The translations under genes and the position numbers were made by a program. A stretch of DNA of 38,214 nt from a virus. How positions within the stretch are numbered: the stretch's first letter is position 1; each line of letters opens with the position of its first letter. Shown here in pieces: positions 2,792-29,448 of the stretch. Location: IMG/VR virus record IMGVR_UViG_3300035698_009224, positions 1 to 38,214 of that record. One strand, given 5' to 3'. The notes under the pieces are model-generated. The model had not been told where the DNA came from, made no database searches, and saw only the letters and a program-made list of their open reading frames with translations.

Positions 2792-3303
2792 TGTCCGCAT
2801 ATTGGATAAGTCCAAGAGGAGAATTAATAGAAGTTGGTAGCAATCATATAGATGTTGTTATTAAAAATCCAGCTAAGTTTGGTTATAGATTATCAGATAT
2901 TAAAAAGATTTTTGCTAAGTATAATGAAACCCTTCATAGTGAAGGTGATGCCAGAGAAAAAATTATAACTGATATTATTAAATCTGGTTGGATCCGTTTA
3001 AGACAATATCAAAATTATTGGTCTGTAACTATAAATATTTTAACTAATAAAATTAAAGATTTATTATATCAATGGGCAAATAAAATTATGAAAGGCCGTA
3101 GCAGTTCAGAAAAATATTCAGATGTTCGAATTGTGCCGCTCGGCCGAGGTTCAACAATTACTAAATATGATGTTGAAGATATATCAAAAGATATTTTACT
3201 TAAAGAGGATGATGGTTCATTATGTAAATTACATTTAGAAAAAATTGAAAATTTACCAGATGTTTCTTTAAAAACATTTAAGGATTTTAAAAATGAAAAT
3301 TAA
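2791..3303 (+). CDS. Conserved phage protein of unknown function
   Basis: A 170-residue protein with an N-terminal segment AYWISPRGELIEVGSNHIDV that I have seen in other large-phage hypothetical proteins, followed by helical EGDAREKIITDIIKSGWIRL (about 51-71). The C-terminal part carries IVPLGRGSTITKYDVEDI. No catalytic motif is evident. It overlaps the previous gene by one base and the next small gene by 11 bases. A TATAAATA at 3030-3037 inside it is probably coincidental. Confidence 0.7.
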   Translation: MSAYWISPRGELIEVGSNHIDVVIKNPAKFGYRLSDIKKIFAKYNETLHSEGDAREKIITDIIKSGWIRLRQYQNYWSVTINILTNKIKDLLYQWANKIMKGRSSSEKYSDVRIVPLGRGSTITKYDVEDISKDILLKEDDGSLCKLHLEKIENLPDVSLKTFKDFKNEN

Positions 3304-3463
3304 TATTACTGATATTAATGGAACTCGGACAAATGAAATTCCGGATGCTGTTGAAAAGGAGCTTATGGAATTAAATGGGATGAGCAAACTTGATATTGCC
3401 GCGGCAATTTGCCAAGCTTTATTAAATGATAATACAAGTGACCCTGTTTTGCTCCAAGAATAA
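3293..3463 (+). CDS. Small acidic protein of unknown function (56 aa)
   Basis: ATG 3293 lies inside the end of the preceding gene and the frame ends at TAA 3461-3463. The protein begins MKINITDINGTRTNEIPDAV and has an alanine-rich helix around DIAAAICQALL. No recognised domain. Overlap with the upstream gene and normal codon use support expression, but it is short. Confidence 0.6.
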   Translation: MKINITDINGTRTNEIPDAVEKELMELNGMSKLDIAAAICQALLNDNTSDPVLLQE

Positions 3464-3689: not shown

Positions 3690-3764
3690 TGGTTAATCGT
3701 TCTAATTTGGTAAGCCACCATCAAAACATAGATGGAGATTTGGGTTCGAATCCCAATTAACCAA
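3690..3764 (+). tRNA. tRNA-like gene with 8-nt anticodon loop AAAACATA
   Basis: The acceptor stem is TGGTTAA/TTAACCA (7 bp). The T arm is TTGGG, TTCGAAT, CCCAA, which is canonical. The D arm is weak (GTTC with AAGC at best) but the loop has the usual GG. The anticodon stem is CCATC/GATGG, but the loop is AAAACATA: 8 nt rather than 7, without U33. An anticodon CAU could be proposed from ACATA but is not safe. The same 8 nt reappear as the loop halves of the interrupted tRNA at 5434-5541. The gene sits directly behind a strong promoter and is probably transcribed. Confidence 0.6.
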
Positions 3765-4051: not shown

Positions 4052-4125
4052 GCTCCAATAGCCCAATAGCAGAGGCACAATACTTAAAATATTGAAAGGT
4101 CTGGGTGCAACTCCCAGTTGGAGTA
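4052..4125 (+). tRNA. tRNA with anticodon UAA (Leu codon UUA), divergent D and T loops
   Basis: The acceptor stem is GCTCCAA/TTGGAGT (one G-U). The anticodon stem is CAATA/TATTG with a canonical loop CTTAAAA, giving UAA, which reads UUA, a frequent codon in this genome. The T stem is CTGGG/CCCAG. Oddities: the D loop lacks GG, the T loop is TGCAACT rather than TTCRANY, and the long variable arm normal for tRNA-Leu is missing. It may be a real but divergent tRNA or a decaying one. Confidence 0.65.
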
Positions 4126-5334: not shown

Positions 5335-5352
5335 GTGCCTTTAGCTCAATTG
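5335..5352 (+). pseudogene. 5' fragment of a tRNA gene
   Basis: The stretch from 5335 (GTGCCTTTAGCTCAATTGGTA, its last three bases shared with the next gene) matches the 5' end of the tRNA at 5434 in 19 of 21 bases and then runs straight into the tRNA-Met gene at 5353. The shared GGTA at the junction suggests a deletion between tandem tRNA genes that left only the acceptor and D-arm 5' part. Confidence 0.45.
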
Positions 5353-5424
5353 GTATCTTTAGCTGAGTTGGTTTAGCAACAGGCTCATAACCTGTAGACC
5401 TCGGTTCGAGCCCGAGAAGATACA
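5353..5424 (+). tRNA. tRNA-Met (CAU)
   Basis: The acceptor stem GTATCTT/AAGATAC is perfect. The anticodon stem ACAGG/CCTGT carries loop CTCATAA with anticodon CAU. The T arm is CTCGG, TTCGAGC, CCGAG. CCA is not encoded. It could be elongator Met or a lysidine-type Ile tRNA; the sequence alone does not decide. Confidence 0.9.
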
Positions 5425-5433
5425 TTAATATGC

Positions 5434-5541
5434 GTGTCCTTAGCTCAATTGGTAGAGTGCAGGGAAAAGCCAACATTCATTGTTATAACATTCATTGTTG
5501 GCCATACCCAGAGGTTGTAGGTTCGAGTCCTACAGGATACA
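5434..5541 (+). tRNA. tRNA interrupted by a 34-nt hairpin in the anticodon loop
   Basis: Outside the anticodon loop this is a regular tRNA: acceptor GTGTCCT/AGGATAC, D arm GCTC/GAGT with GG in the loop, anticodon stem CAGGG/CCCAG (one A-A mismatch), 5-nt variable loop AGGTT, T arm GTAGG, TTCGAGT, CCTAC, discriminator A. Between the loop halves AAAA (5465-5468) and CATA (5503-5506) lies a 34-nt insert (5469-5502) closed by GCCAACA/TGTTGGC. It contains AACATTCATTGTT twice (5472-5484 and 5487-5499). Removing the insert leaves loop AAAACATA, identical to that of the tRNA-like gene at 3690. The anticodon cannot be assigned. Confidence 0.7.
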
Positions 5542-5712: not shown

Positions 5713-5718
5713 TTTTAC

Positions 5719-5761
5719 GCGGACGTGACCGAATGGCTATGGTGTCGGATTTCCAATCCGG
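5719..5761 (+). pseudogene. 5' half of a tRNA (UCC-like anticodon arm), 3' half degenerate
   Basis: The 5' half fits a tRNA: 5' acceptor strand GCGGACG, D arm ACCG/TGGT with GG, and anticodon arm TCGGA, TTTCCAA, TCCGG with anticodon UCC (Gly). Downstream I find no T arm with TTCRA and no strand complementary to GCGGACG before the next gene. It is best read as a truncated tRNA gene or as the 5' half of something assembled differently. Confidence 0.5.
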
Positions 5762-5814
5762 ATTGGCGATAGGTGGTTAGAATACTATTATGTTTGATAA
5801 TTAAATTTTAGAAA

Positions 5815-7592: not shown

Positions 7593-9028
7593 TGAATAAA
7601 TATTACACAAATATTTTAATTTCGGGAGATTCCATTCTCCATAGAGGTATAGAGAATGGAAAAACCTTTTTCAGCAAAGAACCATTTGCTCCTGTTTTAT
7701 ATTTACCAACACAAACTGTTTCAAAATATAAAACATTAGATGGTATAAATGTTGAACCAATATCTCCAGGTACAATTAGAGATACTCGGCAATTTTTACG
7801 TCAATATAGAAATGTTGATAATTTTAAATTTTATGGTAATACACGATACGAATATCAATTTATCAATAAAACGTATCCAAAAGATATTGATTGGAATATA
7901 TCAGACCTTAATATTACTTATCTTGATATTGAGTGTGAGTGTGAAGATGGATTTCCTAATATTGAAACAGCTAATGAGGCTATTAATTTAATTACTATTA
8001 AAACACGAGGACAATATCATACTTTTGGTTGCCAAGATTATGATGCTTTTGTAAAACAGAATACATTATATCATAAATGTGAAGATGAAAAAGAATTATT
8101 GCAAGAGTTTATAAAATTGTGGGTGAGTGATTACCCTGATATTATAACTGGTTGGAATGTACAATTCTTTGATATGGTTTATATTGTGAATAGGATAAAT
8201 GTTGTTCTTTCTAAAAAAGATTCTAAAAAATTAAGTCCTTGGGGTATAATAAAAGAAAGGACGGTTACACTTAGAGGTCAAGAGCAACAAGCTTATGATA
8301 TATATGGTATTGCCACAATGGATTACCTTGATTTATATAAGCGTTATACTTATGTTAATCGTGAAAATTATAAATTAGGATATATCGCTCATGTAGAATT
8401 AGGTACATCTAAAATTGATTATTCTGAATATGGTAGCCTTCATTTATTATATAAAAATAATTGGAATAAGTTTGTTGATTATAATATAAAAGATGTTGAT
8501 TTAGTAACTCAATTAGACGATAAACTTAAATTAATTGAATTGGCTTTATCAATAGCATATGACGCAAAAATGAATTTTGAAGATACTAAAAGCCAGGTTA
8601 GGATTTGGGATACTTTAATTTACAATCATCTTGCTCGTAAAAATATTATAATACCTCAAAACCAATCTAATAGTAGAGATACTCAATATGCAGGTGCTTA
8701 TGTTATGGATCCTATTACTGGATTCCATAAATGGGTTGTTTCATTTGATGTTACATCACTTTATCCATCTTTAATTTTAGCTTTGAATTTATCACCAGAA
8801 ACAATTATGGAGTATGAATGTGATGTTCCTGATTTGAAGGAACACCTTCAATTAAATGGATTAATATATTCTGCAAATAATCAATATTTTAGAAATGATA
8901 TTGATGGATTTTTACCAGAACTTCTTAAAAAGGTATTAGATGATAGGGTTATTGCAAAGAAAAAAATGGTTATTGGTAAGAAAAATTTAGAAATTATACG
9001 TAAAATTAAGGAAAGAAGAAAAATTTAA
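7592..9028 (+). CDS. 43A: DNA polymerase gp43A: N-terminal part with 3'-5' exonuclease and palm motif A
   Basis: The first 478 residues of a family B replicative polymerase, GTG start overlapping the previous stop (TAGTG). Visible: Exo I YLDIECE (110-116, Asp112 and Glu114), Exo II NVQFFDMVYI, Exo III YNIKDVDLV, and polymerase motif A SFDVTSLYPS (about 384-393). The frame stops in the helical fingers-side region after KKNLEIIRKIKERRK, just before motif B. Motifs B and C are in gp43B at 10167. Together the pieces total about 851 residues, near T4 gp43 (898), so the two chains probably assemble into one enzyme. Confidence 0.94.
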   Translation: MNKYYTNILISGDSILHRGIENGKTFFSKEPFAPVLYLPTQTVSKYKTLDGINVEPISPGTIRDTRQFLRQYRNVDNFKFYGNTRYEYQFINKTYPKDIDWNISDLNITYLDIECECEDGFPNIETANEAINLITIKTRGQYHTFGCQDYDAFVKQNTLYHKCEDEKELLQEFIKLWVSDYPDIITGWNVQFFDMVYIVNRINVVLSKKDSKKLSPWGIIKERTVTLRGQEQQAYDIYGIATMDYLDLYKRYTYVNRENYKLGYIAHVELGTSKIDYSEYGSLHLLYKNNWNKFVDYNIKDVDLVTQLDDKLKLIELALSIAYDAKMNFEDTKSQVRIWDTLIYNHLARKNIIIPQNQSNSRDTQYAGAYVMDPITGFHKWVVSFDVTSLYPSLILALNLSPETIMEYECDVPDLKEHLQLNGLIYSANNQYFRNDIDGFLPELLKKVLDDRVIAKKKMVIGKKNLEIIRKIKERRKI

Positions 9029-9098
9029 ATTTATATGCTATTGGTAACACATATTTTTTATAAATAGATGTGTAAATATAATAGTATTTAAGTTTAAG
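9024..9098 (+). promoter_or_regulatory. Long hairpin with TATAAATA in its loop, before the gene-43 insert
   Basis: Arms 9024-9042 and 9080-9098 pair over 19 positions with a few G-U pairs and one mismatch, and ACACAT (9047-9052) pairs with ATGTGT (9068-9073) inside. TATAAATA (9059-9066) is in the apical loop. The structure includes the gp43A stop codon and reaches the Shine-Dalgarno AGGAG (9097-9101) of the next gene. Full-length transcripts would fold it; transcripts starting in the loop would not. Confidence 0.5.
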
Positions 9099-9108
9099 GA
9101 GATTAATG

Positions 9109-9495
9109 ATGGGCCAATGGGGATTTAATAGTTATGATTCGGATTTATGCCATGATTATATTCAAGATGTTTGTTCTGAATATTATGATAACCCAGCAAC
9201 ACAAGAACAAGTTACATTGATGATTGATAATTTAACAGATGATATTAATAAAGAAGCAGATAATCATCCTGAAAATAGTATTTCATGGTATAATGTATTT
9301 GCATATATAGGACTTATTTCATGGGTATTATCTAAGAAATATGTGGTTAGTAAAGGTAGACTTAAGCTGTGGTTAGAATGGATAGATGATTATAATACAG
9401 AAAATTCTTTTAGAAAATGGTCAGAACCAAATGAAAGAAAAAAATGTGTTAAACATGAAATGGATGTGGTGAAAAGTGCCTTATCATCTTTATAA
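9109..9495 (+). CDS. DUF4259-like small protein inside the gene-43 insert
   Basis: A 128-residue protein beginning MGQWGFNSYDSDLCHDYI. This resembles the DUF4259 opening (MGAWG ... F-x-N-D-x-A-x-D-W). ATG 9109 is preferred to 9106 because AGGAG (9097-9101) is then 7 nt away. Function unknown. It lies between gp43A and the endonuclease, overlapping the latter by 20 bases, so it travels with the insert. It could be cargo of the mobile element or an older gene caught in it. Confidence 0.6.
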   Translation: MGQWGFNSYDSDLCHDYIQDVCSEYYDNPATQEQVTLMIDNLTDDINKEADNHPENSISWYNVFAYIGLISWVLSKKYVVSKGRLKLWLEWIDDYNTENSFRKWSEPNERKKCVKHEMDVVKSALSSL

Positions 9496-10183
9496 AATAA
9501 CTAATATTATAAATGATAAAATATATGTTGGTGTTCATAAATCTGATAATCCAAATGATTTATATTATGGCTCTGGTATTGCAATAAAAACAGCAATTAA
9601 AAAATACGGTAAAGAAAATTTCATTAAAGAGATTATAGCTTCATATACAACATCTAAGCAAGCATATGAACATGAGAAAACAATTGTTAATGAAGAATTT
9701 GTTAATAAAAGAACAACATATAATATGTGTATTGGTGGAAAAGGCGGCTTTGATTACATACAATCATTAGGTTTACCGAATCCAATGCATAATAAATTGG
9801 TTGCTAAAAAGTGTGTTGATGCCGCTAATAGAACAAGAGCTAATAATCCTGAAAAATATAAAAGGGTTTCAATAGAAAATTTAAAAAAAGCTATTAAATA
9901 TAATACAGGAAGAAAACGTCCAGAACATTCAGAAAAAATGAAAGAACGTGCTAAAAATCCTACTAAAAAAATGATTACTGGTTGGAAAAAAGCAAAAGAA
10001 GCAAGAATAAAAACATATGTTTTAATTTGTAGTAAAAAAGAAATTGAATTGTGTGGTTTAAAAAAATTAAAATCATATTGTAAGATACATAAATTGCCAT
10101 GGTCAAGTGCGTATAATATTATAGTATATAATAAAAAGTTTCAGTGTGGTAAATTGAAAGATTATAGTGGATATATTAAATAA
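9476..10183 (+). CDS. GIY-YIG homing endonuclease splitting gene 43
   Basis: A 235-residue endonuclease with a GTG start. The catalytic domain is N-terminal: YHLYKITN, then IYVGVHKSDN (the YVG of GIY-YIG), a conserved YGKENF and the Glu of YEHEKTIV. The C-terminal part has NUMOD3-like RKRPEHSEKMKERAKN and a helix-turn-helix-like LKSYCKIHKLPWSSAYNII. It would nick or cut polymerase genes that lack the insert and promote its own spread. It overlaps gp43B by 17 bases. There is no room on either side for a group I intron core, so this is a free-standing insertion. Confidence 0.87.
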   Translation: MPYHLYKITNIINDKIYVGVHKSDNPNDLYYGSGIAIKTAIKKYGKENFIKEIIASYTTSKQAYEHEKTIVNEEFVNKRTTYNMCIGGKGGFDYIQSLGLPNPMHNKLVAKKCVDAANRTRANNPEKYKRVSIENLKKAIKYNTGRKRPEHSEKMKERAKNPTKKMITGWKKAKEARIKTYVLICSKKEIELCGLKKLKSYCKIHKLPWSSAYNIIVYNKKFQCGKLKDYSGYIK

Positions 10184-13757: not shown

Positions 13758-14695
13758 AAAATCAATTACAAGATTTAATGAGTTTAGCAAATAATCCATT
13801 TGCTGTTATTGCAAGTGATGGTATTGATTGGAGTGATGTAACTGAATATATAGATACTGGTTCGTATGTGCTTAATGCATTGCTTTCTGGTTCTATATAT
13901 GGTGGTTTAGCTTCAAATAAAAGATTAGCTATTGCTGGTGAAACATCTACAGGGAAAACTTTTGCGGCATTAACAATAGTAAAATTATTCTTGGATAAAT
14001 ATAAAGATGGATACGTTTGTTATTTTGATTCTGAATGTGCTGTAACATCTGATATGTTTTTTGAAAGAGGAATTGATGCAAGCCGTGTTGCTGTTTTTGA
14101 TGTTTCTACTATTGAAGCCATTAGATTTCAAACTAATGCGATAGTTGATGGCTATTTAAAGGTTCCAGAAAAAGACCGTAAGCGTTTTATGATTGTTATT
14201 GATTCATTAAGTCAATTATCAACTGATAGAGAAATTGCCACAGTTGAAAATGGTAAGAATAAAGCTGATATGGGTAACACACAAAAGCTCATTAAATCTA
14301 CTTTTAGAACATTATCAAGTAAATTAGGACGTGGTCATATACCTATGATTATAACTGCTCATACATACAAAGAAATGGGAGCATTGTTTCCTCGTAGTAT
14401 TATGGCAGGTGGATGTTTGGTTGCAGGACAAAAAATATATACAAAAACTGGTTTAAAGAGTATTGAAGATGTAAAGATTGGAGATATTGTTGAAACAATT
14501 GATGGTGAAGAAAAAGTTATAAACACATTTAGTTTTGATGATAGAGAAGTATATGAAATGAAATTAGCTGATGGATCAATTATAGAATGTACAGGTGAGC
14601 ATAAATTTATGGTTAAAGATTCTGTTTCTGGTGATTTTATTTGGAAAGAATTGAAAAATATTAATGAAAATGATATTTTATTGAAAAAAAGATAA
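13754..14695 (+). CDS. uvsX-N: UvsX recombinase N-part fused to N-half of a split intein
   Basis: Residues 1-220 are the N-terminal RecA-like core of T4-type UvsX: Walker A GETSTGKT (62-69), Walker B FMIVIDSLSQ near 145-154 and the end HTYKEMGALFPRSIMAGG. At Cys221 (codon 14414-14416) the recombinase stops and an intein begins: block A CLVAGQKIYTKTG, then IGDIVETIDGE, and block B GSIIECTGEHKFMV with the T-x-x-H. The frame ends 93 residues into the intein. The C-half is at 15889. Trans-splicing would restore a recombinase of 349 residues (T4 UvsX 391) that forms filaments on ssDNA. Confidence 0.94.
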   Translation: MKNQLQDLMSLANNPFAVIASDGIDWSDVTEYIDTGSYVLNALLSGSIYGGLASNKRLAIAGETSTGKTFAALTIVKLFLDKYKDGYVCYFDSECAVTSDMFFERGIDASRVAVFDVSTIEAIRFQTNAIVDGYLKVPEKDRKRFMIVIDSLSQLSTDREIATVENGKNKADMGNTQKLIKSTFRTLSSKLGRGHIPMIITAHTYKEMGALFPRSIMAGGCLVAGQKIYTKTGLKSIEDVKIGDIVETIDGEEKVINTFSFDDREVYEMKLADGSIIECTGEHKFMVKDSVSGDFIWKELKNINENDILLKKR

Positions 14696-14702
14696 AATAT
14701 TT

Positions 14703-14760
14703 ACCTCCAGACATAATTGTTTTTATAAATACTATTGTAAACAATATTTTGTCTGGAGGT
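14703..14760 (+). promoter_or_regulatory. RBS-hiding hairpin with a late-promoter consensus in its loop
   Basis: ACCTCCAGACA (14703-14713) pairs perfectly with TGTCTGGAGGT (14750-14760), and ATTGTTT (14716-14722) with AAACAAT (14739-14745). The 3' arm holds the GGAGG Shine-Dalgarno (14755-14759) of the endonuclease at 14766. The loop carries TATAAATACTATT (14724-14736), a full match to the T4 late-promoter consensus as I recall it. Read-through RNA would hide the RBS; RNA started from the loop would expose it. Confidence 0.7.
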
Positions 14761-14765
14761 ATTAA

Positions 14766-15920
14766 ATGGGATTGAAAGATTCATATAAATTTTGGATGAC
14801 AAAGAAATATAATGAATTAGATGCTAAAAAATTGGCTAAAGGTTTTCGTAAATGTCAAATTTGTAATAAATGGATAATAGAGGAAGATTTTTATAAATTT
14901 ACATCTTTAAAAATATGTTCATTAAAATGTTTTGAGCAACATAATAAACAAAAAGCTTTAAATTATAAAAATGCTGGTAAAAAAAATCTTGGACGTCAAT
15001 ATAATAATATTAAATATTGGATAAAAAAAGGTTATTTAAAAAAAGATGCTCAAGAAAAGGTTAGTGAATATTTGAATAATATAAAATTATCTAATAAATT
15101 GTGTATTGAATATTGGATAAAAAAAGGTTATTTAAAAAAAGATGCTCAAGAAAAGGTTAGTGAATTACAAAAAAGTAGAAGTATGCGAACTATTGAATAT
15201 TGGATAAAAAAAGGTTATTTAAAAAAAGATGCTCAAGAAAAGGTTAGTGAATTACAAAAATTATATGGTTTGCAATCACATAAAAATATATCTTCTATAG
15301 AAGAATTACGAAAAATACAACCATTTAGAATTGAATATTGGATTGACCGAGGATTTACATATAATGAATCAATTGATAAGGTAAAAGAAAATAATAAAAA
15401 ATATTCTGTTACTAAAAAAAATATGATGAAAAAATATGGAAAAATTGAAGGAATCAATCGATGGATGAAATGGTATAATAATCATGTAGAGCAAATGAAA
15501 AAATTAGGTCGTAAATATTGTGGAGCTCCATCAAAAATAGCAAATGAATTATTTGATTTATTACAATATGATGGAAATGTTTATTATGGAACATCTAAAA
15601 ACGAGTTTGGAAAATATATAAAGGATTATGGATATGTTAAGTATGATTTTGTTATAAGTGATATAAAATTATGTATTGAATTTCATGGTGATGTATGGCA
15701 CGCAAATCCTAAGAAATTTAAAGAAACAGATACTATGTTTTTTGGAAAAACAGTTAAAGAAATTAGAATACATGATAAAATAAAACAAAAATTCCTTGAA
15801 GATGATGGATTTTTATATATCGTTATTTGGGAAAATGATTATCGTAATAATAAAATAAAAATAAAAGATTATTTACAAGGAGTTATTAATGAAAGAAGTG
15901 CAAGTTTTATCGATTGTTAA
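14766..15920 (+). CDS. EDxHD (Vsr-like) homing endonuclease inside split uvsX
   Basis: A 384-residue protein. The N-terminus has a CxxC/CxxxC metal-knuckle pattern (CQICNKW, then ICSLKCFEQH). Residues about 80-210 contain four repeats of a YWIKKGYLKKDAQEKVSE-type module; three are encoded by an identical 54-nt sequence. The C-terminus is the nuclease: YDFVISDIKLCIEFHGDVWH, ANP, then KIKQKFLEDDGFLYIVIWEND, matching the Vsr-like fold of I-Bth0305I and the endonucleases of fractured phage genes. Its last 32 bases overlap the UvsX C-part. Confidence 0.86.
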   Translation: MGLKDSYKFWMTKKYNELDAKKLAKGFRKCQICNKWIIEEDFYKFTSLKICSLKCFEQHNKQKALNYKNAGKKNLGRQYNNIKYWIKKGYLKKDAQEKVSEYLNNIKLSNKLCIEYWIKKGYLKKDAQEKVSELQKSRSMRTIEYWIKKGYLKKDAQEKVSELQKLYGLQSHKNISSIEELRKIQPFRIEYWIDRGFTYNESIDKVKENNKKYSVTKKNMMKKYGKIEGINRWMKWYNNHVEQMKKLGRKYCGAPSKIANELFDLLQYDGNVYYGTSKNEFGKYIKDYGYVKYDFVISDIKLCIEFHGDVWHANPKKFKETDTMFFGKTVKEIRIHDKIKQKFLEDDGFLYIVIWENDYRNNKIKIKDYLQGVINERSASFIDC

Positions 15921-18944: not shown

Positions 18945-20351
18945 GTGGCAGAACAAATTGAATATATAATTTTAAGGTCGTTATTATATAATGATAATTA
19001 TGTTAAGGATGTTTTACCTTATTTAAAGCAAGAATATTTCATGGATAATGTTGAACGAAATATTTTCTTTAAAATAAAAGCATATATTGATACATATAAT
19101 AGTTTACCGACAAAAGATGCTATTGAACTTGCCGTAAATAACCAAAAAAATCTTAAACAAGATGAGTATGAAAAATCAATTGAATTATTAAATACTCTTG
19201 AATCCAAAAAAGATTTTAAAAACCATGAGGATTGGTTGAGGGATAGTACCGAGAAGTTTTGTAAAGAAAAAGCAATGTATAATGCTTTGATGGAGTCTGT
19301 ACAAATAGCTGATGGTAAATCTAAACAAAAAACACCACAAGCTATACCAGAAATTTTAGAAAATGCATTATCTGTTTCCTTTGAAACTAATATAGGACAT
19401 GATTGGTCAGCCGATGCAGAAGCCCGATGGGATAGCTATAATCTTAAAGAACAGGGTGTGCCATTTGATTTATCCTTTTTTAATAAAATAACAAAAGATG
19501 GATTTAAAAAGAAAACATTAAATGTATTTCTTGCCGGTACAGGAATAGGTAAAACTCTTGCAATGTGCCATATTGCCGCTCATGCAATGACAATAGGAAA
19601 ACAGGTTTTATATATTACATGTGAAATATCAGAAGAAAAAATAGCAGAACGAATTGATGCTAATTTGTTTAATGTTGATATTGAAGATATTGAATTGTTA
19701 CCAAGAAAATTATTCTTAGAAAAAATTGATAAAATCCGAAAAAAGGTACTTGGTAAGATAAAAATAAAAGAATACCCAACATCAACTGCCCATTGCGGAC
19801 ATTTTAAACATTTAATTAGAGAATTGAAATTAAAAAAATCATTTGTACCTGATATAATATTTATTGATTATATAAACATTTGTTGTTCAAGTAGGATTGC
19901 ATTAGGTGGGTCTGGTGGGACATATTCATATATTAAAGCTATCGCAGAGGAAATGCGAGGCCTTGCTGTAGAGTGTGATGTACCTGTTGTAACAGCAACA
20001 CAAACAAATAGAGTTGGTTTTGATAATTCGGATGTTGGCCTTGTTAATACTGCGGAATGCATTGAATCAAATAGTGTTTTATATAAAAAAACTGGTTTAG
20101 ATTATGAAAAAATAAAAATTAAAGATATAAAAGTTGGAGATGAAATAAAAGGTAGTTTTGGTGATGTTGTTGTTATGAAAAAACAAAAACCAGAAATTAA
20201 AAAAACATTTATAATTAAAACAAAAAATGGTAAATCGATACGAGTTAGCGAAAACCATAAATTTCCAACAATTTCTGGTAGAAAATCAATAAATGCTGGT
20301 TTGAAAATTGGGGATATTATAAATACTAATATACTCGGTAATATAGAATAA
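18945..20351 (+). CDS. 41-N: Replicative helicase gp41 N-part fused to N-half of a split intein
   Basis: GTG start. Residues 1-371 are a DnaB-type helicase like T4 gp41: N-terminal helical domain, Walker A AGTGIGKT (197-204), Walker B PDIIFIDYIN (302-311), and the VVTATQTNR segment. It ends ...VGLVNTAE, then Cys372 (codon 20058-20060) opens an intein: block A CIESNSVLYKKTG, IKVGDEIKG, and block B GKSIRVSENHKFPTI. Only 97 intein residues are present. The C-part starts at 21501. Trans-splicing would give 471 residues (T4 gp41 475). Confidence 0.93.
   Translation: MAEQIEYIILRSLLYNDNYVKDVLPYLKQEYFMDNVERNIFFKIKAYIDTYNSLPTKDAIELAVNNQKNLKQDEYEKSIELLNTLESKKDFKNHEDWLRDSTEKFCKEKAMYNALMESVQIADGKSKQKTPQAIPEILENALSVSFETNIGHDWSADAEARWDSYNLKEQGVPFDLSFFNKITKDGFKKKTLNVFLAGTGIGKTLAMCHIAAHAMTIGKQVLYITCEISEEKIAERIDANLFNVDIEDIELLPRKLFLEKIDKIRKKVLGKIKIKEYPTSTAHCGHFKHLIRELKLKKSFVPDIIFIDYINICCSSRIALGGSGGTYSYIKAIAEEMRGLAVECDVPVVTATQTNRVGFDNSDVGLVNTAECIESNSVLYKKTGLDYEKIKIKDIKVGDEIKGSFGDVVVMKKQKPEIKKTFIIKTKNGKSIRVSENHKFPTISGRKSINAGLKIGDIINTNILGNIE
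20318..20325 (+). promoter_or_regulatory. TATAAATA box before the gp41 endonuclease
   Basis: TATAAATACTAAT begins 66 bp before the endonuclease ATG, inside the end of the N-intein frame. Unlike at uvsX and rnl2, I see no strong hairpin over the RBS here. Confidence 0.35.
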
Positions 20352-20383
20352 CCAAACATCGTTGATTTTTAAAGAAATAAAAA

Positions 20384-21511
20384 ATGCCTAAATATAAAGT
20401 AAATTTTTCTGATTTATCACCTATTGATAAATTTAATAGAATATGTAAAAATAAATTTTTTGAAGATATTGATTGTAACTATTGGAGAAAAAATTATTTA
20501 GATATTAATGATACGGATATATTGATTAAAAATAAAAAATTTGTTTTGTCTATTTTATCAAAATTACCAAATCAACCTAATAAATCACAATTAATTAAAT
20601 TAGCCAGATTATATTTTTATTGTGATGAAGATTTTGTTGATTTATTTTTTAAAAAAATCGATAATACGTTAACCAAGGAAACATTTAAACTTAGATATGG
20701 TTTGATTAATGGTAAAAAATTATATGATAATTATATTATTAATTTAAAGAGCCGACCAAAAGCGAAAAATCATAACTCACCAATAATGATAAAATATTGG
20801 ATAGATAAAGGTTTTAATAAAACAGAAGCTAAAAATAAAATATCAATATTACAATCTCACCGGTGTAAAAAACGTAAAGATTATGTAATGAATAATAAAT
20901 TAAAATGGTGTATTAATTATTGGCTCAAAAGAGGATATACACTTAAAGAAGCAAAAATATTAATAAACCCATATATGTTGCAATGTAAGCAAGGATTAGA
21001 AGATTTTAAAAAAAGATATGGAGTTATTAAAGGAAAATTAAAATTTGACGAAATGATAGTCAAACGAAAAAATACTATTTTTGAAAGATATAATACACAT
21101 AATATTTTTACTTTATATCAAAAACAAGCGTCAAAGGAATCATTAAAAATATTTTTACCATTAATTCATTTAATTAAAAAAGAATATAATATTAAACAAA
21201 ATGATATTTGTATAGGAATTGATGGTAATAAAGAATTTATATTAGGTGGAAAATATTTTTATGATTTTGTTATTAAAAGTAAAAAAATAATAATCGAATT
21301 TAATGGTATTAATTGGCATCCTAAAAAATTAAATGATGAAAATTTTAATTGTCCTATATCTTTTATTGATAGTAATGAAAAATATAATTATGACAGGAAA
21401 AAAATAGAATATGCTGTTAATGAGGGATTTAAAGTTTTAGAAATATGGTCTGATTGTGAAAATAATTTTGATATTTGTGTTAATTTTTTAAAAGAGAATA
21501 ATGTTAAATAA
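20384..21511 (+). CDS. EDxHD (Vsr-like) homing endonuclease inside split gp41
   Basis: A 375-residue protein. The middle carries two modules related to those of the uvsX endonuclease (KYWIDKGFNKTEAKNKIS and NYWLKRGYTLKEAKILI). The C-terminus is the nuclease: YFYDFVIKSKKIIIEFNGIN, WHP, then YDRKKIEYAVNEGFKVLEIW, the Vsr-like arrangement. The N-terminal 120 residues are helical and not recognised. Sequence similarity to the uvsX endonuclease is moderate, so the two are old relatives rather than recent copies. It overlaps the gp41 C-part by 11 bases. Confidence 0.82.
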   Translation: MPKYKVNFSDLSPIDKFNRICKNKFFEDIDCNYWRKNYLDINDTDILIKNKKFVLSILSKLPNQPNKSQLIKLARLYFYCDEDFVDLFFKKIDNTLTKETFKLRYGLINGKKLYDNYIINLKSRPKAKNHNSPIMIKYWIDKGFNKTEAKNKISILQSHRCKKRKDYVMNNKLKWCINYWLKRGYTLKEAKILINPYMLQCKQGLEDFKKRYGVIKGKLKFDEMIVKRKNTIFERYNTHNIFTLYQKQASKESLKIFLPLIHLIKKEYNIKQNDICIGIDGNKEFILGGKYFYDFVIKSKKIIIEFNGINWHPKKLNDENFNCPISFIDSNEKYNYDRKKIEYAVNEGFKVLEIWSDCENNFDICVNFLKENNVK

Positions 21512-22831: not shown

Positions 22832-23329
22832 GTGGCAAAATTAAAAGTAAGAATGAATGAAAAGAAACAAAACTTTGTTGATATAGTAAAGGCTAAATAT
22901 GGTCAAATAGAAATCATATCAAGGGAACAAATAAATGTTCTTTTGGGTGAAAATTCTGATATGGTTTGGCCTTCATGGTTAACAGCAAATAAAGGCTTGC
23001 GTGCTGGTCGAGGACAGTTTTATCTTCCATCTGATATTGGTGAAGTTTCTATTAGTAAACCTGAATTGAAAGTTGCTCCAGCGGAGGTTGTAGTTGAAGA
23101 AGATGAAGCTAAACCTAAAAAGAATTGGTGGGGTGATGGACCTACACCAAAAGCAAAATTTGTATTGCCGGTATCAAAAGAAGATACGGATATTTGTGAA
23201 TGCCCTAAATGTTCACAAGTAGGTTATATAAATTATATGGGTCATACTGTATGTAAAAATCATTGGGTTCGTCATTGTGATTCTAACAGTGAATATAATC
23301 TGAAAAAAGTATTTTGTATTTATGGATAA
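22832..23329 (+). CDS. Phage protein with possible DNA-binding N-terminus and zinc site (165 aa)
   Basis: The longer frame from ATG 22805 begins only 3 bp after the -10 box, before any likely transcript start, so GTG 22832 with GGAG at 22821-22824 is the start. The N-terminal 60 residues (FVDIVKAKYGQIEIISREQI, then WPSWLTANKGLRAGRGQFYL) resemble a winged-helix-like domain seen in other large phages. A linker follows, then CECPKCSQ and a later Cys/His group (VCKNHWVRHC) that could bind zinc. Function unknown. Confidence 0.65.
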   Translation: MAKLKVRMNEKKQNFVDIVKAKYGQIEIISREQINVLLGENSDMVWPSWLTANKGLRAGRGQFYLPSDIGEVSISKPELKVAPAEVVVEEDEAKPKKNWWGDGPTPKAKFVLPVSKEDTDICECPKCSQVGYINYMGHTVCKNHWVRHCDSNSEYNLKKVFCIYG

Positions 23330-23333
23330 GTTT

Positions 23334-23759
23334 ATGATTTGGAAAAAATATAGTTCAATAGATAATGTAAATAGTGATAAAATGATGATGTATATTAGGT
23401 TACATATATCACCTGATACACAATGGTGTGTTACTGAAAAAGCGCATGGCTGTCTTGATTCTGATACTAATATAATTACTAAAGAATTTGGAGAAGTTCC
23501 TATTTCTTATATTGTTGATAACCAAATAAAGTGTCATGTATTATCATACAATATAAAAACAAAAGAAAAGGAATGGGATGAAGTAATAAATTTTCAAAAT
23601 GTGGTAAATGATAATAAAGAATGGTATGTCATAGAATTAGAAGATGGAACACATATAACATTAACAGGTAATCATAAAATGTGGATTGATGATAAAGGAA
23701 AATATATATCTGTTGATGAATTAGTTAAAAATATCAATCAATTAATTTTAAAAAGATAA
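23334..23759 (+). CDS. rnl2-N: RNA ligase 2 N-part fused to N-half of a split intein
   Basis: The chosen start ATG 23334 gives MIWKKYSSIDN, matching the T4 Rnl2 start MFKKYSSLEN; ATG 23322 is in frame but has a poorer leader. Residues 1-39 are the ligase up to motif I, WCVTEKAHG, with the nucleophile Lys36. Cys40 (codon 23451-23453) opens the intein CLDSDTNIITKEFGEV with block B GTHITLTGNHKMWI. The frame ends after 102 intein residues. The intein therefore interrupts the ligase four residues after the catalytic lysine. The C-part is at 24583. Confidence 0.88.
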   Translation: MIWKKYSSIDNVNSDKMMMYIRLHISPDTQWCVTEKAHGCLDSDTNIITKEFGEVPISYIVDNQIKCHVLSYNIKTKEKEWDEVINFQNVVNDNKEWYVIELEDGTHITLTGNHKMWIDDKGKYISVDELVKNINQLILKR

Positions 23760-23774
23760 CTGAAAAGATAGTGT

Positions 23775-23816
23775 AATTTCTCTGTTTTATAAATAGATGT
23801 AAGAAATGGAGAAATT
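23775..23816 (+). promoter_or_regulatory. RBS-hiding hairpin with TATAAATA in its loop
   Basis: AATTTCTC (23775-23782) pairs with GAGAAATT (23809-23816), which ends directly at the endonuclease ATG (23817) and contains most of its GGAG ribosome-binding site (23808-23811). TATAAATA (23788-23795) is in the loop. Same logic as at 14703-14760 although the sequences are unrelated. Confidence 0.65.
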
Positions 23817-24626
23817 ATGCTAAATTTTAAAAAATGTAGATTTTGTGGTAAAAAATATGAAGTTAAAAACAAATATTCAATTTCTGGTCATTTAGCACGA
23901 TGTAAAGGTTTAAATGAATATAAAGAAGCTGTATTAACAAAAGTATATTTGAATAATGAATATAATAAAAATGAACGGTCAGCTTTAGAAATTGCTCAAG
24001 AACATGGATTTAATTCAGCAACAATAATAATAAATCTTTTGAAAAAATATAAAATAAGTAAGAGAAACATTTCTCAATCTTTATGTACGGATTTAACAAA
24101 AAAGAAAATTAAAAAAACAAATATTAAAAGATATGGTTATGAACATAATTTTTGTAAAAATAATCCATCAAGATTGAAATGGGAACAAAGATTATATGAT
24201 GAAGAAGGTATAATTAATGTTTATCAGCGAGAAGATGTTAAAAAAATAATAAAACAAAAATCATTAGAAACAAAATATAGACTTGGATTAGCTGTAAGAC
24301 CTGAATTAAAATCTAAATGGAAAAGATATAAAGAATGTGTATTTAATGAAACTAATAAAAATTATAAAAAATATAAACATCTTATTAATCCATTAAAGGT
24401 AAATAGAAAACGAAATAAATATCATCTTGACCATATTGTTAGTATTAGATATGGCTTTGATAATAATATACCGATAAATATTATGGCTCATACAGCTAAT
24501 TTACAAATGTTAAAAGAAAAGGAAAATATATCAAAAGGTATGAAATGTGGTTGTAGTATTGATGAATTATATAAAAGGGTAAATGAATATGAATTTTGTG
24601 AAAATAAAATCAATAAAAAAAATTAA
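23817..24626 (+). CDS. HNH homing endonuclease inside split RNA ligase 2
   Basis: A 269-residue protein. It starts with a zinc-finger-like CRFCGKKYEVKNKYSISGHL, ARC (Cys7, Cys10, His, Cys), then a helical part with ERSALEIAQEHGFNSATIII that looks like a helix-turn-helix. The catalytic HNH motif is C-terminal: KYHLDHIVSIRYGFDNNIPI, then ANLQMLKEKENISKG. It would cut intein-less ligase genes. It belongs to a different nuclease class from the Vsr-like enzymes in uvsX and gp41. It overlaps the ligase C-part by 44 bases. Confidence 0.86.
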   Translation: MLNFKKCRFCGKKYEVKNKYSISGHLARCKGLNEYKEAVLTKVYLNNEYNKNERSALEIAQEHGFNSATIIINLLKKYKISKRNISQSLCTDLTKKKIKKTNIKRYGYEHNFCKNNPSRLKWEQRLYDEEGIINVYQREDVKKIIKQKSLETKYRLGLAVRPELKSKWKRYKECVFNETNKNYKKYKHLINPLKVNRKRNKYHLDHIVSIRYGFDNNIPINIMAHTANLQMLKEKENISKGMKCGCSIDELYKRVNEYEFCENKINKKN

Positions 24627-25635
24627 AAATGATAGTAATTTGTTTGATATAGAAACTAAAAATAATCATAATTTCTTTGCAAATGATATTTTGGTTCATA
24701 ATTCTAATTATTCTATGTGGTGTGATGGTGTAGAATTTAAAACAGGTAAAAGGAGTTCCTTTATTAGACCTGAATCTAATTTTATGAACCATCAATATGT
24801 TGATGCTAAATACCGAGATAATATTTTTTCTATATTTGATAAGGTAAAAAATACTTATGCAAATGCAAAAGCAGGTAAAGTTGTTGAATATATTATTGTG
24901 AATGGTGAGTTACTTGGTGGAGCTTATGCTGGTGCAAAACCAAAAGACGTTCATGCTAAGAAAGTACAAAGTGGTATTTCTTATTGCCCAGATAATGAAT
25001 TTTATGCTTTTGATTTACAAGTAAAATTTAAAGATTCCGATGTAGCTGAATATATAGATTATGCAGTTGCAGTAGTATTTTTCTTTGTATTACCTCATGC
25101 AGAAATTCTTAAAATGGGTACTTTAGATGAATGTCTTGAATACTCTAATGAATTTCAGTCACGAATTTATAAAATGTTTACTGATGCAGATGGTAATTTT
25201 TTAGAAAAACTACCAGATAATATTTGTGAAGGTGTTGTAATTAAACCTATTACTCCAGAGTTTCTTGCGTCTGGAAGTAGAGTTATATTAAAGAATAAAA
25301 ATGATAAATGGTCTGAACAAAAACAGAAAACTAAGATTAAGAAAATGACTGTGTTATCTCCTCTTGCGTTAGAATTTGCTGAAACCGCTGAAACATATAT
25401 TAATGAAAATCGTTTGAGAAATGTTCTTTCGCATGAATGTGAAGAATGGACTTTTCGAGATTTTGGTAGAATCCAAGGTATGTTTAGCAAAGATATATGG
25501 GAAGAATTTATTAAAGATAATGATGTTTCTGGCCTTGATAAGAAAGAAGTTAAAGCATTATCTAAATATGTAGCTACGAAATGTTCCGAAGTGATACGGA
25601 AAAATATCACAAATATTATAGATAATTGTTTTTAG
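24583..25635 (+). CDS. rnl2-C: C-half of split intein fused to RNA ligase 2 C-part
   Basis: Residues 1-40 are the C-intein: NLFDIETKNNHNFFANDILV, then HN with splice Asn40. Ser41 (codon 24703-24705) opens the ligase SNYSMWCDGVEFKTGKRSSF. Nucleotidyltransferase motifs follow: motif III VNGELLGGAYAG, motif IV EGVVIKP, motif V VILKNKNDKWSE, then the Rnl2 C-terminal domain (310 extein residues). Spliced length would be about 349 (T4 Rnl2 334). The enzyme seals nicked RNA and would work with the kinase at 25863. AAAAGGG just upstream serves the ATG. Confidence 0.93.
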   Translation: MNMNFVKIKSIKKIKNDSNLFDIETKNNHNFFANDILVHNSNYSMWCDGVEFKTGKRSSFIRPESNFMNHQYVDAKYRDNIFSIFDKVKNTYANAKAGKVVEYIIVNGELLGGAYAGAKPKDVHAKKVQSGISYCPDNEFYAFDLQVKFKDSDVAEYIDYAVAVVFFFVLPHAEILKMGTLDECLEYSNEFQSRIYKMFTDADGNFLEKLPDNICEGVVIKPITPEFLASGSRVILKNKNDKWSEQKQKTKIKKMTVLSPLALEFAETAETYINENRLRNVLSHECEEWTFRDFGRIQGMFSKDIWEEFIKDNDVSGLDKKEVKALSKYVATKCSEVIRKNITNIIDNCF

Positions 25636-25862: not shown

Positions 25863-26783
25863 ATGAAGTTAGTTTTACTTAAAGGACTACCAGGCAGCGG
25901 AAAATCTACAGAGGCAAAACGCCTTGTTAATAGTGGGCAATATGTTCGCATTAATCGTGATACTGTTAGAGAAATGTTATTATGTCCTAATGATGATGGT
26001 AAAAAAGCATTTAATTACAAAGTAGAATCTATTGTTACTGATATTTGTTTAACGTCAGCAGATTTAATTATGTCTGATGAAAAATTTCATATTGTTGTTG
26101 ATGAATGTAATTTAAATCCTAAATATATTAATGTTTGGAAAGACCGTGCCACTAATTGGGGTTATACATTTGAAGTCCGCAAAATGAATGTATCTATTGA
26201 TGAATGTATCAAGCGTGATGTTAATAGAGTTCCTAATGTTGGTGCCAGAGTTATTAAGAATATGGCATTGCGGGCAGGCCTGCTTGATGGATATGATTAT
26301 CTTCCTAAAAAACCATTTGATTCTGTCGGTCCATCCAATCGTAAAATTGTGCTTTGTGATGTTGACGGCACATTAGCTGATGTAGAACATAGATTACATT
26401 TTGTGAATGGTAGTGAGAAAAAGAATTGGAAAAGTTTCTTTGAAAATATGTCAAAGGATACTTTACGTCAAAGCACTAAAGATATTGTTACAAAATATTA
26501 TGCTCTTGATTATTTTGTTGTTCTTCTTACAGCAAGACCACAAGAATATTTAATTGATACTGTTGATTGGTTAAATAAATATGATGTACCATTTAATAAT
26601 ATAATTATGAGAAAAAATAATGATTATCGCAGGGACGACATCGTTAAGGAAGAAATTCTTAATAAGTGGTTTACTAACAAAGAATTGATTGAATTTGTGA
26701 TTGATGATAGACCTCAAGTTATACGTATGTGGGAAAGAAATGGTCTTAAAGTGGTAGATGTGGGAAATGGTATAGATTTTTAA
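25863..26783 (+). CDS. pseT: Polynucleotide kinase / 3'-phosphatase
   Basis: A 306-residue homologue of T4 Pnk (301). The N-terminal kinase has P-loop GLPGSGKS (8-15), the catalytic INRDTVREML and an Arg lid. The C-terminal phosphatase is of the DxDxT acylphosphatase type: CDVDGTLADVEHRLHF (about 165-180), with LLTARP and IDDRPQV. It prepares RNA ends (5'-phosphate, 3'-OH) for ligation by the two RNA ligases in this window, as in T4 repair of cleaved tRNA. Confidence 0.94.
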   Translation: MKLVLLKGLPGSGKSTEAKRLVNSGQYVRINRDTVREMLLCPNDDGKKAFNYKVESIVTDICLTSADLIMSDEKFHIVVDECNLNPKYINVWKDRATNWGYTFEVRKMNVSIDECIKRDVNRVPNVGARVIKNMALRAGLLDGYDYLPKKPFDSVGPSNRKIVLCDVDGTLADVEHRLHFVNGSEKKNWKSFFENMSKDTLRQSTKDIVTKYYALDYFVVLLTARPQEYLIDTVDWLNKYDVPFNNIIMRKNNDYRRDDIVKEEILNKWFTNKELIEFVIDDRPQVIRMWERNGLKVVDVGNGIDF

Positions 26784-27684: not shown

Positions 27685-28845
27685 ATGATGAAAATACATA
27701 ACAACCAATGGTATCAATCAGATTCCAAAAAGCCTTATATTCATCCTGCGGTAGAAATGTCATTTGATGAATTTTATAATGGTTTGTTGGATTGTGTGGC
27801 TAAAGGTACAGTTAATATGGTGCTTAATGCTGATAATGACCGTGTATTATTTAAGTATAATCAAATAAAAATATGGGATGAAGGTTGGAATAAATATTCA
27901 ATCCTTGCAAGAGGTTTGATTTTATCGCTCAATGAAAAACGAGTTGTTGCAATGCCATATCCTAAATTTTTTAATTATGGTGAAGGTAGTTATGTATTAC
28001 CTGACGATTCAGAATTTACTGCTTTTGAAAAGCTTGATGGTTCATTAGGTATTTTATATAATTGGAAAGGTAAGTGGGAAGTTGCTACAGCTGGTTCATT
28101 TACTTCTGACCAAGCAATTTGGGCTACCAAATATATAAATAATACAGCAAATTTAAATGTATTGAATAGTTTTTATTATGATTGTACTATTTTAGGTGAA
28201 ATAATATATCCTGAAAATAAAATAGTTATTGATTATGATAATTTCGAAGGTTTTGTTGTGCATGGTGCTTATAATATTCTTGGTCATGAACTTCATTATC
28301 ATTATATGTTAGGTAATACATTTAATTGTGATGTTGTTAAAGCATATTCATATAAAGACCTTCCTAAAATAGTAGAACTTTGTAAATCATTGCCTCATAA
28401 TCAAGAGGGATTTGTTATACATTTCAATAATGGCTATAGAGTTAAGATTAAGGGTGACGAATATGTCCGTGTCCATCGTCTTATATCAAATGTTACACCT
28501 CTTAGGATATGGGAATCTATGCTGGCTGGTGATGATATTGACGCTCTTAAAAAAGAATTACCAGAGGAGTTTAGAGAAACTATTGATGAGTATGTTTCAA
28601 AAATATCTATACAGATAATGAAATTAACATCTAAAGTTGCATTGCACTCTATGGATATAGAGAAATTTACAGATAAGGAATTAGGTTTATGGATAAAGGA
28701 TCCATTTAACATTACACCAAAAAATATTAAAGATTTGCTTTTTATGGTACGTAAAAAGGATTTCTTTAGGAATATGTGTATTGGTGGTTCTGAATGTCGT
28801 AAAAAAATATTTAAAATGTTTAAACCTGTAGGTAATAAAATTTAA
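27685..28845 (+). CDS. rnlA: RNA ligase 1 (T4 RnlA type)
   Basis: A 386-residue homologue of T4 RNA ligase 1 (374). Visible: the upstream ILARGLILSLNEKRVVAMPY block, motif I FEKLDGSLG with nucleophile Lys116, motif III ILGEIIYP, motif IV EGFVIHF and motif V YRVKIKGDEYVRVHR, then the helical tRNA-binding C-terminal domain. It joins 5'-phosphate and 3'-OH RNA ends, classically at broken anticodon loops. ATG 27688 is an alternative start. Its stop overlaps a possible 15-codon ORF (28845-28892) that would couple to the next gene. Confidence 0.93.
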   Translation: MMKIHNNQWYQSDSKKPYIHPAVEMSFDEFYNGLLDCVAKGTVNMVLNADNDRVLFKYNQIKIWDEGWNKYSILARGLILSLNEKRVVAMPYPKFFNYGEGSYVLPDDSEFTAFEKLDGSLGILYNWKGKWEVATAGSFTSDQAIWATKYINNTANLNVLNSFYYDCTILGEIIYPENKIVIDYDNFEGFVVHGAYNILGHELHYHYMLGNTFNCDVVKAYSYKDLPKIVELCKSLPHNQEGFVIHFNNGYRVKIKGDEYVRVHRLISNVTPLRIWESMLAGDDIDALKKELPEEFRETIDEYVSKISIQIMKLTSKVALHSMDIEKFTDKELGLWIKDPFNITPKNIKDLLFMVRKKDFFRNMCIGGSECRKKIFKMFKPVGNKI

Positions 28846-29066: not shown

Positions 29067-29427
29067 GGGGACGAAAGGGATTCGACTGGATAAAGAAGAT
29101 TATAAATGCATGTAGCGGATGGGTAGTTGGCCGCTTTAAAAATCTATCTAACGTCTTAATTGGCAACCGTAGTTTAGCAATGGCCGCGTAAGCGACCCAT
29201 TCTGATAAATCAGCCTGATGGTTTTGAAAGAATGTTAAAATTCAGGATAAGTTTTGTTAAACAATCCGTGATAACAATATCGAAAATTTTATTCGGATGT
29301 AGGTTGGTGTGAATATCAAGATGGTTACTATCAAAAGATATTACCGAATTATACCCAAAAGTAACTAAACATGTAGAATTTTAATTATAATTTATTACAG
29401 GACTCCGCTTCGATGCGGACGTCTCCA
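29067..29427 (+). ncRNA. ssrA: tmRNA (SsrA), phage-encoded
   Basis: A one-piece tmRNA of 361 nt. The tRNA-like ends pair: GGGGACG (29067-29073) with CGTCTCC (29420-29426), then discriminator A. The 5' part contains the family sequence GGGATTCGACTGG, and the T arm is TCCGC, TTCGAT, GCGGA (a 6-nt loop). The tag reading frame at 29162-29191 reads Gly-Asn-Arg-Ser-Leu-Ala-Met-Ala-Ala-stop, ending in Ala-Ala as proteolysis tags do. It would rescue stalled ribosomes and mark the products for degradation. A late-type box lies in front. Confidence 0.88.
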
Positions 29428-29448
29428 TTTTTTAAGAGGGTGGTATAG

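Follow-up and report, generated by a model that had tools for sequence, protein, structure and literature searches.

A tRNA gene whose anticodon loop is interrupted by a hairpin raises the question of whether its RNA loses the hairpin and decodes, serves in another role, or is a by-product of rearrangement. We examined such a gene at positions 5434-5541 of an IMG/VR virus record of 38,214 bases, analysed over its whole length (hereafter the window). The DNA polymerase of the window groups with T4-like phages related to cyanophages, with a top identity of about 50% among the relatives found. Comparison of the window with phage DNA yielded zero matches to close relatives, the use of ThyX as a route to such relatives yielded none, and no relative close enough for comparing the 5434-5541 locus was found in the collections searched. 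The locus comprises the following features:

5434..5541, + strand: tRNA gene with an interrupted anticodon loop, 108 nt (Rfam RF00005, 46.0 bits; our own tRNA model R1, 50.5 bits)
5469..5502, + strand: 34-nt hairpin insert GCCAACA..TGTTGGC, with AAAA on one side and CATA on the other (fold -10.2 kcal/mol)
5472-5484 and 5487-5499, + strand: two identical copies of AACATTCATTGTT, spacing 15, a tandem-duplicated short palindrome

The gene belongs to the tRNA family both by score (gathering score of 29 for RF00005) and by the cloverleaf order of its stems, and in the RF00005 alignment a 42-nt loop separates the two strands of the anticodon stem. The acceptor (GTGTCCT in the 5' part), D (GCTC/GAGT) and T stems are intact, the anticodon stem (CAGGG/CCCAG) has one A-A mismatch, and the 3' part holds a 5-nt variable loop, the T arm, the acceptor strand and a discriminator A. 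Along the anticodon loop, AAAA (5465-5468) is followed by the hairpin GCCAACATTCATTGTTATAACATTCATTGTTGGC (5469-5502) and then by CATA (5503-5506). The hairpin, in full GCCAACA-UUCAU-UGU-UAUA-ACA-UUCAU-UGUUGGC, contains a 13-nt near-palindrome twice with 15-nt spacing, which confirms the insert, its position and the duplicated palindrome described in an earlier note on this DNA. Since the two AACATTCATTGTT copies are identical, the duplication is probably recent.

The 42-nt loop was predicted to fold at -11.2 kcal/mol (z -3.8, with 0 of 200 shuffles as stable) and the whole tRNA at z -3.2; of random 34-mers drawn from the window, only 0.23% folded as well as the insert. Searches of viral contigs returned no exact match to the inner 28-mer of the insert or to the 3' half of the tRNA, and the insert is unique to its own locus in what was searched. 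ARAGORN without introns reported neither this gene nor the one at 3690 described below, and with introns allowed it called 5434 a dubious tRNA-Ala(ggc) containing an intron of 31 nt. Using the tRNA body as a blast query in phages, we obtained matches to Trp, Met, Val, Arg and Asn isotypes.

To ask whether excision can restore a decoding tRNA, we enumerated every single excision whose product has a 5-bp stem, one joint base and loops of 7 nt (anticodon) and 4-5 nt (variable), scored them as pairs + U33 + purine 37, and used dinucleotide shuffles as the null. In this standard register the best score at 5434 was 4.0 (P 0.56), and looser joints and variable loops (P 0.64) yielded no product other than GGGTG-TTGGCCA-TACCC, whose joint is 3 nt and whose variable loop is 7 nt long. 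No single excision in the standard register gave a U33-bearing 7-nt loop beside a good stem, so the proposal of an excised element failed the standard test. The gene thus has the 7-nt loop with U33 of a decoding tRNA neither as encoded nor after one excision, and because no product has U33 beside a good stem in the standard register, removal of the hairpin would not yield a normal decoding tRNA. Even with the hairpin cut out, the RNA probably cannot read codons.

Two known intron types were rejected for the insert. The catalytic core of group I introns spans some 200 nt or more, and the exclusion of this class by size, already argued in the earlier note, holds for an insert of 34 nt; at gathering score, Rfam matched tRNAs and a tmRNA in the whole window and nothing else. 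Bulge-helix-bulge introns of archaea and eukaryotes have two 3-nt bulges either side of a 4-bp helix at the splice sites, and the predicted fold at 5434 has a symmetric 4x4 internal loop instead.

We then considered the neighbouring tRNA genes and fragments:

3690..3764, + strand: weak tRNA with the 8-nt loop AAAACATA (Rfam 31.1 bits, gathering score 29; R1 36 bits)
4052..4125, + strand: canonical tRNA-Leu(UAA) (ARAGORN; Rfam 49.3 bits)
5335..5355, + strand: 5' fragment of a lost tRNA gene, 21 nt (direct repeat family D1; 90% identical to 5434-5454)
5353..5424, + strand: canonical tRNA with a CAU anticodon, Met or lysidine-type Ile (ARAGORN; Rfam 65.9 bits), called tRNA-Met below
5717..5790, + strand: decayed tRNA (R1 19.7 bits over 5719-5771; reading of the sequence)

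Without its hairpin, the gene at 5434 has the loop AAAACATA, the same as that of the gene at 3690. This sharing, pointed out in the earlier note, is confirmed, and base composition gives it a probability of about 1.1e-4; the accompanying claim that it can hardly be coincidence was not supported. The identity of the two loops carries less weight than it first appears to, since CATA aligns with the CAU and A37 of the adjacent tRNA-Met, and if CATA was inherited from a CAU anticodon, the coincidence left is AAAA, at about 2% by composition. In the part of one comparative study considered here, a CAU tRNA is present in all tRNA-bearing T4-like genomes compared, and no tRNA insert is mentioned (PMC1524935). 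The gene at 3690, tRNA-Gln-like by eye (U1-A72, TCG, GGTAAG), has paired acceptor, anticodon (a perfect 5 bp) and T stems and is less regular than previously described, because its D stem is broken at 2 of 4 pairs. As a phage-wide motif, AAAACATA was rejected: scanning viral contigs for it before a T arm yielded 42 stretches (12 in a stricter scan), few of which were tRNAs, with no clear tRNA bearing an 8-nt AAAACATA loop among the stretches examined, and a reversed-letter control yielded 23, among which were likewise several odd tRNAs. The suggested recurrence of such loops in other phages was therefore not borne out. In the window, the loop complement TATGTTTT occurs no more often than its reversed control.

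The fragment at 5335-5355 is fused onto the start of tRNA-Met and is the scar of a deletion between tRNA genes. From CATA onwards, the 3' half of the 5434 tRNA has 72% ungapped identity to the 3' half of tRNA-Met from CAU and A37, and the similarity extends into the trailer ATACATTAA. Together, the fragment and this identity point to duplication and deletion inside the array. The tRNA at 5717 retains an intact anticodon arm (TCGGA-TTTCCAA-TCCGG) and has a ruined T arm. A decaying repeat insertion, one of the possibilities raised earlier, fits best, since the 5' fragment and the ruined tRNA adjoin the gene.

Downstream, the window encodes RNA repair enzymes and a tmRNA:

23322..25635, + strand: T4 RNA ligase 2 (Rnl2) type ligase, intein-split (Pfam domains)
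25863..26783, + strand: polynucleotide 5'-kinase/3'-phosphatase, PNKP (Pfam HAD_PNKP 6e-25, AAA_33 7e-15)
27685..28845, + strand: T4 RNA ligase 1 (Rnl1) type ligase (Pfam RNA_lig_T4_1 4e-15)
29067-29430: phage-encoded tmRNA, tag GRFKNLSNVLIGNRSLAMAA (Rfam)

The kinase/phosphatase and two RNA ligases noted from the letters are thus present. In the Rnl2 gene, Intein_splicing was matched in both halves (below its cut-off), RNA_ligase and T4_Rnl2_C were matched in the second half, and the ORF between the halves had no Pfam match. PNKP, Rnl1 and the split Rnl2 are common to many T4-like phages and do not single out the gene at 5434.

We built R1 from 22 tRNAs and ran it on fetched viral contigs, yielding more than 12 tRNA-like genes whose anticodon loop holds 20-71 nt, a set biased to such genes because the contigs were fetched by odd-loop patterns, and including a few misaligned class II tRNAs. 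In T4-like relatives chosen by polymerase or nearby gene, none of the 22 tRNA matches exceeded 82 nt, which indicates that inserts are uncommon. Anticodon-arm inserts appear repeatedly in phages that are not related to one another (Aeh1, B23, Lak megaphages and IMG/VR contigs). On one 4.6-kb contig (L036:3872-4526, - strand), all three tRNA genes have anticodon-loop inserts, with loops of 26, 27 and 32 nt. With one insert-bearing tRNA as query, blast pointed to Synechococcus phage B23, with an insert-bearing gene of 110 nt annotated 'tRNA-OTHER', and to Aeromonas phage Aeh1, with one of 122 nt (96384-96505) annotated tRNA-Val(CAC). Inserts of about 40 nt in Aeh1, B23 and three IMG/VR phages (L147, L148 and G012) form a family of the form UNAAAAC-hairpin-UAACAGCAAAU, in these tRNA genes:

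Aeh1, L178:2863-2975 (113-nt gene, copy recognised by eye) and 2995-3116 (aligned insert)
B23, L177:11984-12093
L187:436-551 and 694-804 (same phage as L147)
L188:474-589 (same phage as L148)
L136:1266-1379 and 3214-3332 (-)

The family hairpin has two-sided changes at 7 of 7 pairs, and pairing covers 97.6% of its cells, compared with 70.7% for shuffles and 31-45% for slid controls, figures that lean to structure because the alignment was hand-arranged with N padding and the hairpins in register. We built a covariance model (R2) from the Aeh1, B23, L147, L148 and G012 copies, and searching with it yielded a further copy in L147 (31.1 bits); by eye, the tRNA adjoining the first Aeh1 tRNA holds another. 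An Rfam scan to E 0.5 gave no match at these inserts beyond the tRNAs containing them. The 5434 insert was rejected as a member, reaching at most 4.3 bits with R2 at the insert with filters off.

Applied to the family, the excision test restored an anticodon arm in four tRNAs (Arg UCG, Asn GUU and, twice, Asp GUC): ACGGC-ATTCGGA-GCCGT in B23 (P 0.008), TTCGC-CTGTCCC-GCGAA in G012b (P 0.008), CCTCC-TTGTCCC-GGAGG in L147-2 (P 0.016) and, in the 113-nt gene Aeh1-2, CTGGC-CTGTTAA-GCCTG, which has one mismatch (P 0.039). In these copies the insert lies in the 5' strand of the anticodon stem, with excision near positions 28-29. Excision restored no arm in L147-1, L148, Aeh1-1 or G012a, so that half of the eight copies fit the intron reading well. 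The family looks like a small non-group-I tRNA intron, and structured phage anticodon-arm inserts are therefore not always debris, because they recur and one family resembles real introns. An Rnl1-type ligase was found in three of the five family phages (W01, W02 and G012, in the last inside a 747-codon open frame), one of which also has PNKP; RtcB was absent from the nine insert-bearing phages searched, including the five with the family.

The closest described precedent is that of the Lak megaphages, whose tRNA introns, predicted from sequence, were called 'enigmatic' in 2019, with none reported earlier to those authors' knowledge, as stated in the part of the report considered here (PMC6784885). 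In three Lak genomes we found tRNA-like genes of 96-159 nt; excision restored TCGGT-CTTCCAT-ACCGA in the 159-nt gene (P 0.01) and no arm in those of 104, 115 and 127 nt, and R2 gave weak matches (E 0.03-0.7), none at the long tRNA genes. Like the Lak genes, 5434 is a phage tRNA gene enlarged by an insert other than a group I intron, with the tRNA body intact and the insert confined to the anticodon arm. It differs in its 34-nt duplicated palindrome of unrelated sequence, in giving no standard mature loop and in its T4-like phage with repair enzymes. With the ~40-nt family it shares a hairpin insert in the anticodon arm of a phage tRNA, in several cases with Rnl1 in the phage, but that family has a conserved UNAAAAC-hairpin-UAACAGCAAAU layout, and the 5434 insert fails both R2 and the excision test. 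Pre-tRNA introns of archaea and eukaryotes are likewise short helix-forming inserts in the anticodon loop, whereas here no bulge-helix-bulge is seen, the insert lies 5' of CAU rather than 3' of the anticodon, and the carrier is a bacterial virus with a tmRNA. Engineered tRNA scaffolds (PMC3753655) also have a tRNA body with a hairpin replacing the anticodon loop; 5434 is, unlike them, natural and short, with no known cargo. The gene belongs to a known but poorly understood kind, phage tRNA genes with a structured anticodon-arm insert, and to its non-decoding sort. Descriptions of such inserts later than the 2019 Lak report may exist outside the open-licence literature.

With confidence just past even, we read 5434 as the gene for a non-decoding RNA derived from a tRNA, lying in a small phage tRNA array that is recombining and decaying. 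A CAU-type tRNA would have gained a small palindrome 5' of the anticodon, probably via slippage or fold-back synthesis, and a 15-bp duplication of the palindrome would have followed. Host RNase P and RNase Z would go on processing the transcript as they do a tRNA, leaving a stable body in which a hairpin replaces the anticodon loop and which the ribosome cannot use. No selected function is needed to explain the gene, and its RNA is most likely a by-product of the rearranging array. Decay is favoured by the failed excision test, the 5' fragment, the 72% identity to tRNA-Met, the decayed tRNA at 5717, the broken D stem at 3690 and an insert seen at no other locus searched; it is disfavoured by acceptor, D and T helices more intact than old decay predicts, by the recurrence of structured anticodon-arm inserts in phages, and by the PNKP, Rnl1 and Rnl2 of the same phage. 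The three intact outer helices, the strong hairpin fold (z -3.8) and the repair enzymes would also suit a functional non-decoding tRNA mimic, either a stable hairpin-presenting scaffold or a decoy that ties up host anticodon nucleases or withstands them while PNKP and Rnl1 repair the real tRNAs. Phage tRNAs have been proposed to evade tRNA-targeting defences by altered anticodon loops (PMC10264068), and engineered scaffolds with a hairpin for the anticodon stem-loop have been made in E. coli (PMC3753655). We consider such a mimic unlikely: conservation was seen in no relative, the loop lacks U33 or a recognisable anticodon-nuclease target, and the identical duplicated palindrome with adjoining tRNA debris resembles drift.

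Improbable in our judgement is an excised element, in which an endonuclease would cut out the hairpin, and PNKP with RNA ligase 1 or 2 would join the halves into a 74-nt tRNA with the loop AAAACATA. The loop already present at 3690, the canonical arms restored in four tRNAs of the ~40-nt family and the Rnl1-type ligase that most phages of that family share with the window are consistent with it, as are the tRNA introns reported in the part of the Lak study considered here (PMC6784885). However, the product would have an 8-nt loop without U33, the excision test at 5434 was at chance, the insert scored no higher than 4.3 bits with the model of the intron-like family, and the junction is a 4x4 internal loop with no visible bulge-helix-bulge. 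A wider conjecture, to which we give little credence, is that the PNKP and RNA ligases of T4-like phages mend tRNAs and also splice phage tRNAs with short non-self-splicing inserts, 5434 being a substrate or decoy whose product is not for decoding. Eight-nucleotide anticodon loops allow four-base reading, and the loops of 3690 and excised 5434 both end in CAUA; a translating tRNA whose enlarged loop contains CAU, such as a frameshift suppressor, is nonetheless very improbable, given that both genes lack U33, 3690 has a broken D stem and 5434 keeps its hairpin.

The significance of this gene alone is modest, and the covarying ~40-nt family is the more promising discovery. Sorting inserts by whether excision restores the anticodon arm separates candidate introns from debris, 5434 being non-restoring, and makes the splicing question testable in cultured phages such as Aeh1. 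No protein-based tRNA splicing pathway is known in bacteria.

Two further observations concern intervening and repeated elements. In two phages that carry the ~40-nt family, free-standing elements of ~50-100 nt recur between the tRNA genes (L187:380-860 and L136:900-3450). Each has a CAGCAA motif and a terminal stem, as in AGATGGTTCAGCAATTC..GACCATCT and GGTGCATACAGCAAAAT..ATGCACC, the CAGCAA core being common to the ~40-nt family. In the window itself, the ORF list reads as apparent intein or endonuclease-like interruptions at 9028-10167, 14695-15889, 20351-21501 and 23759-24583, the genes apparently interrupted being those for the DNA polymerase, a RecA-like protein, a helicase and Rnl2 (intein domains matched for Rnl2 only), a high load of intervening elements for 38 kb.
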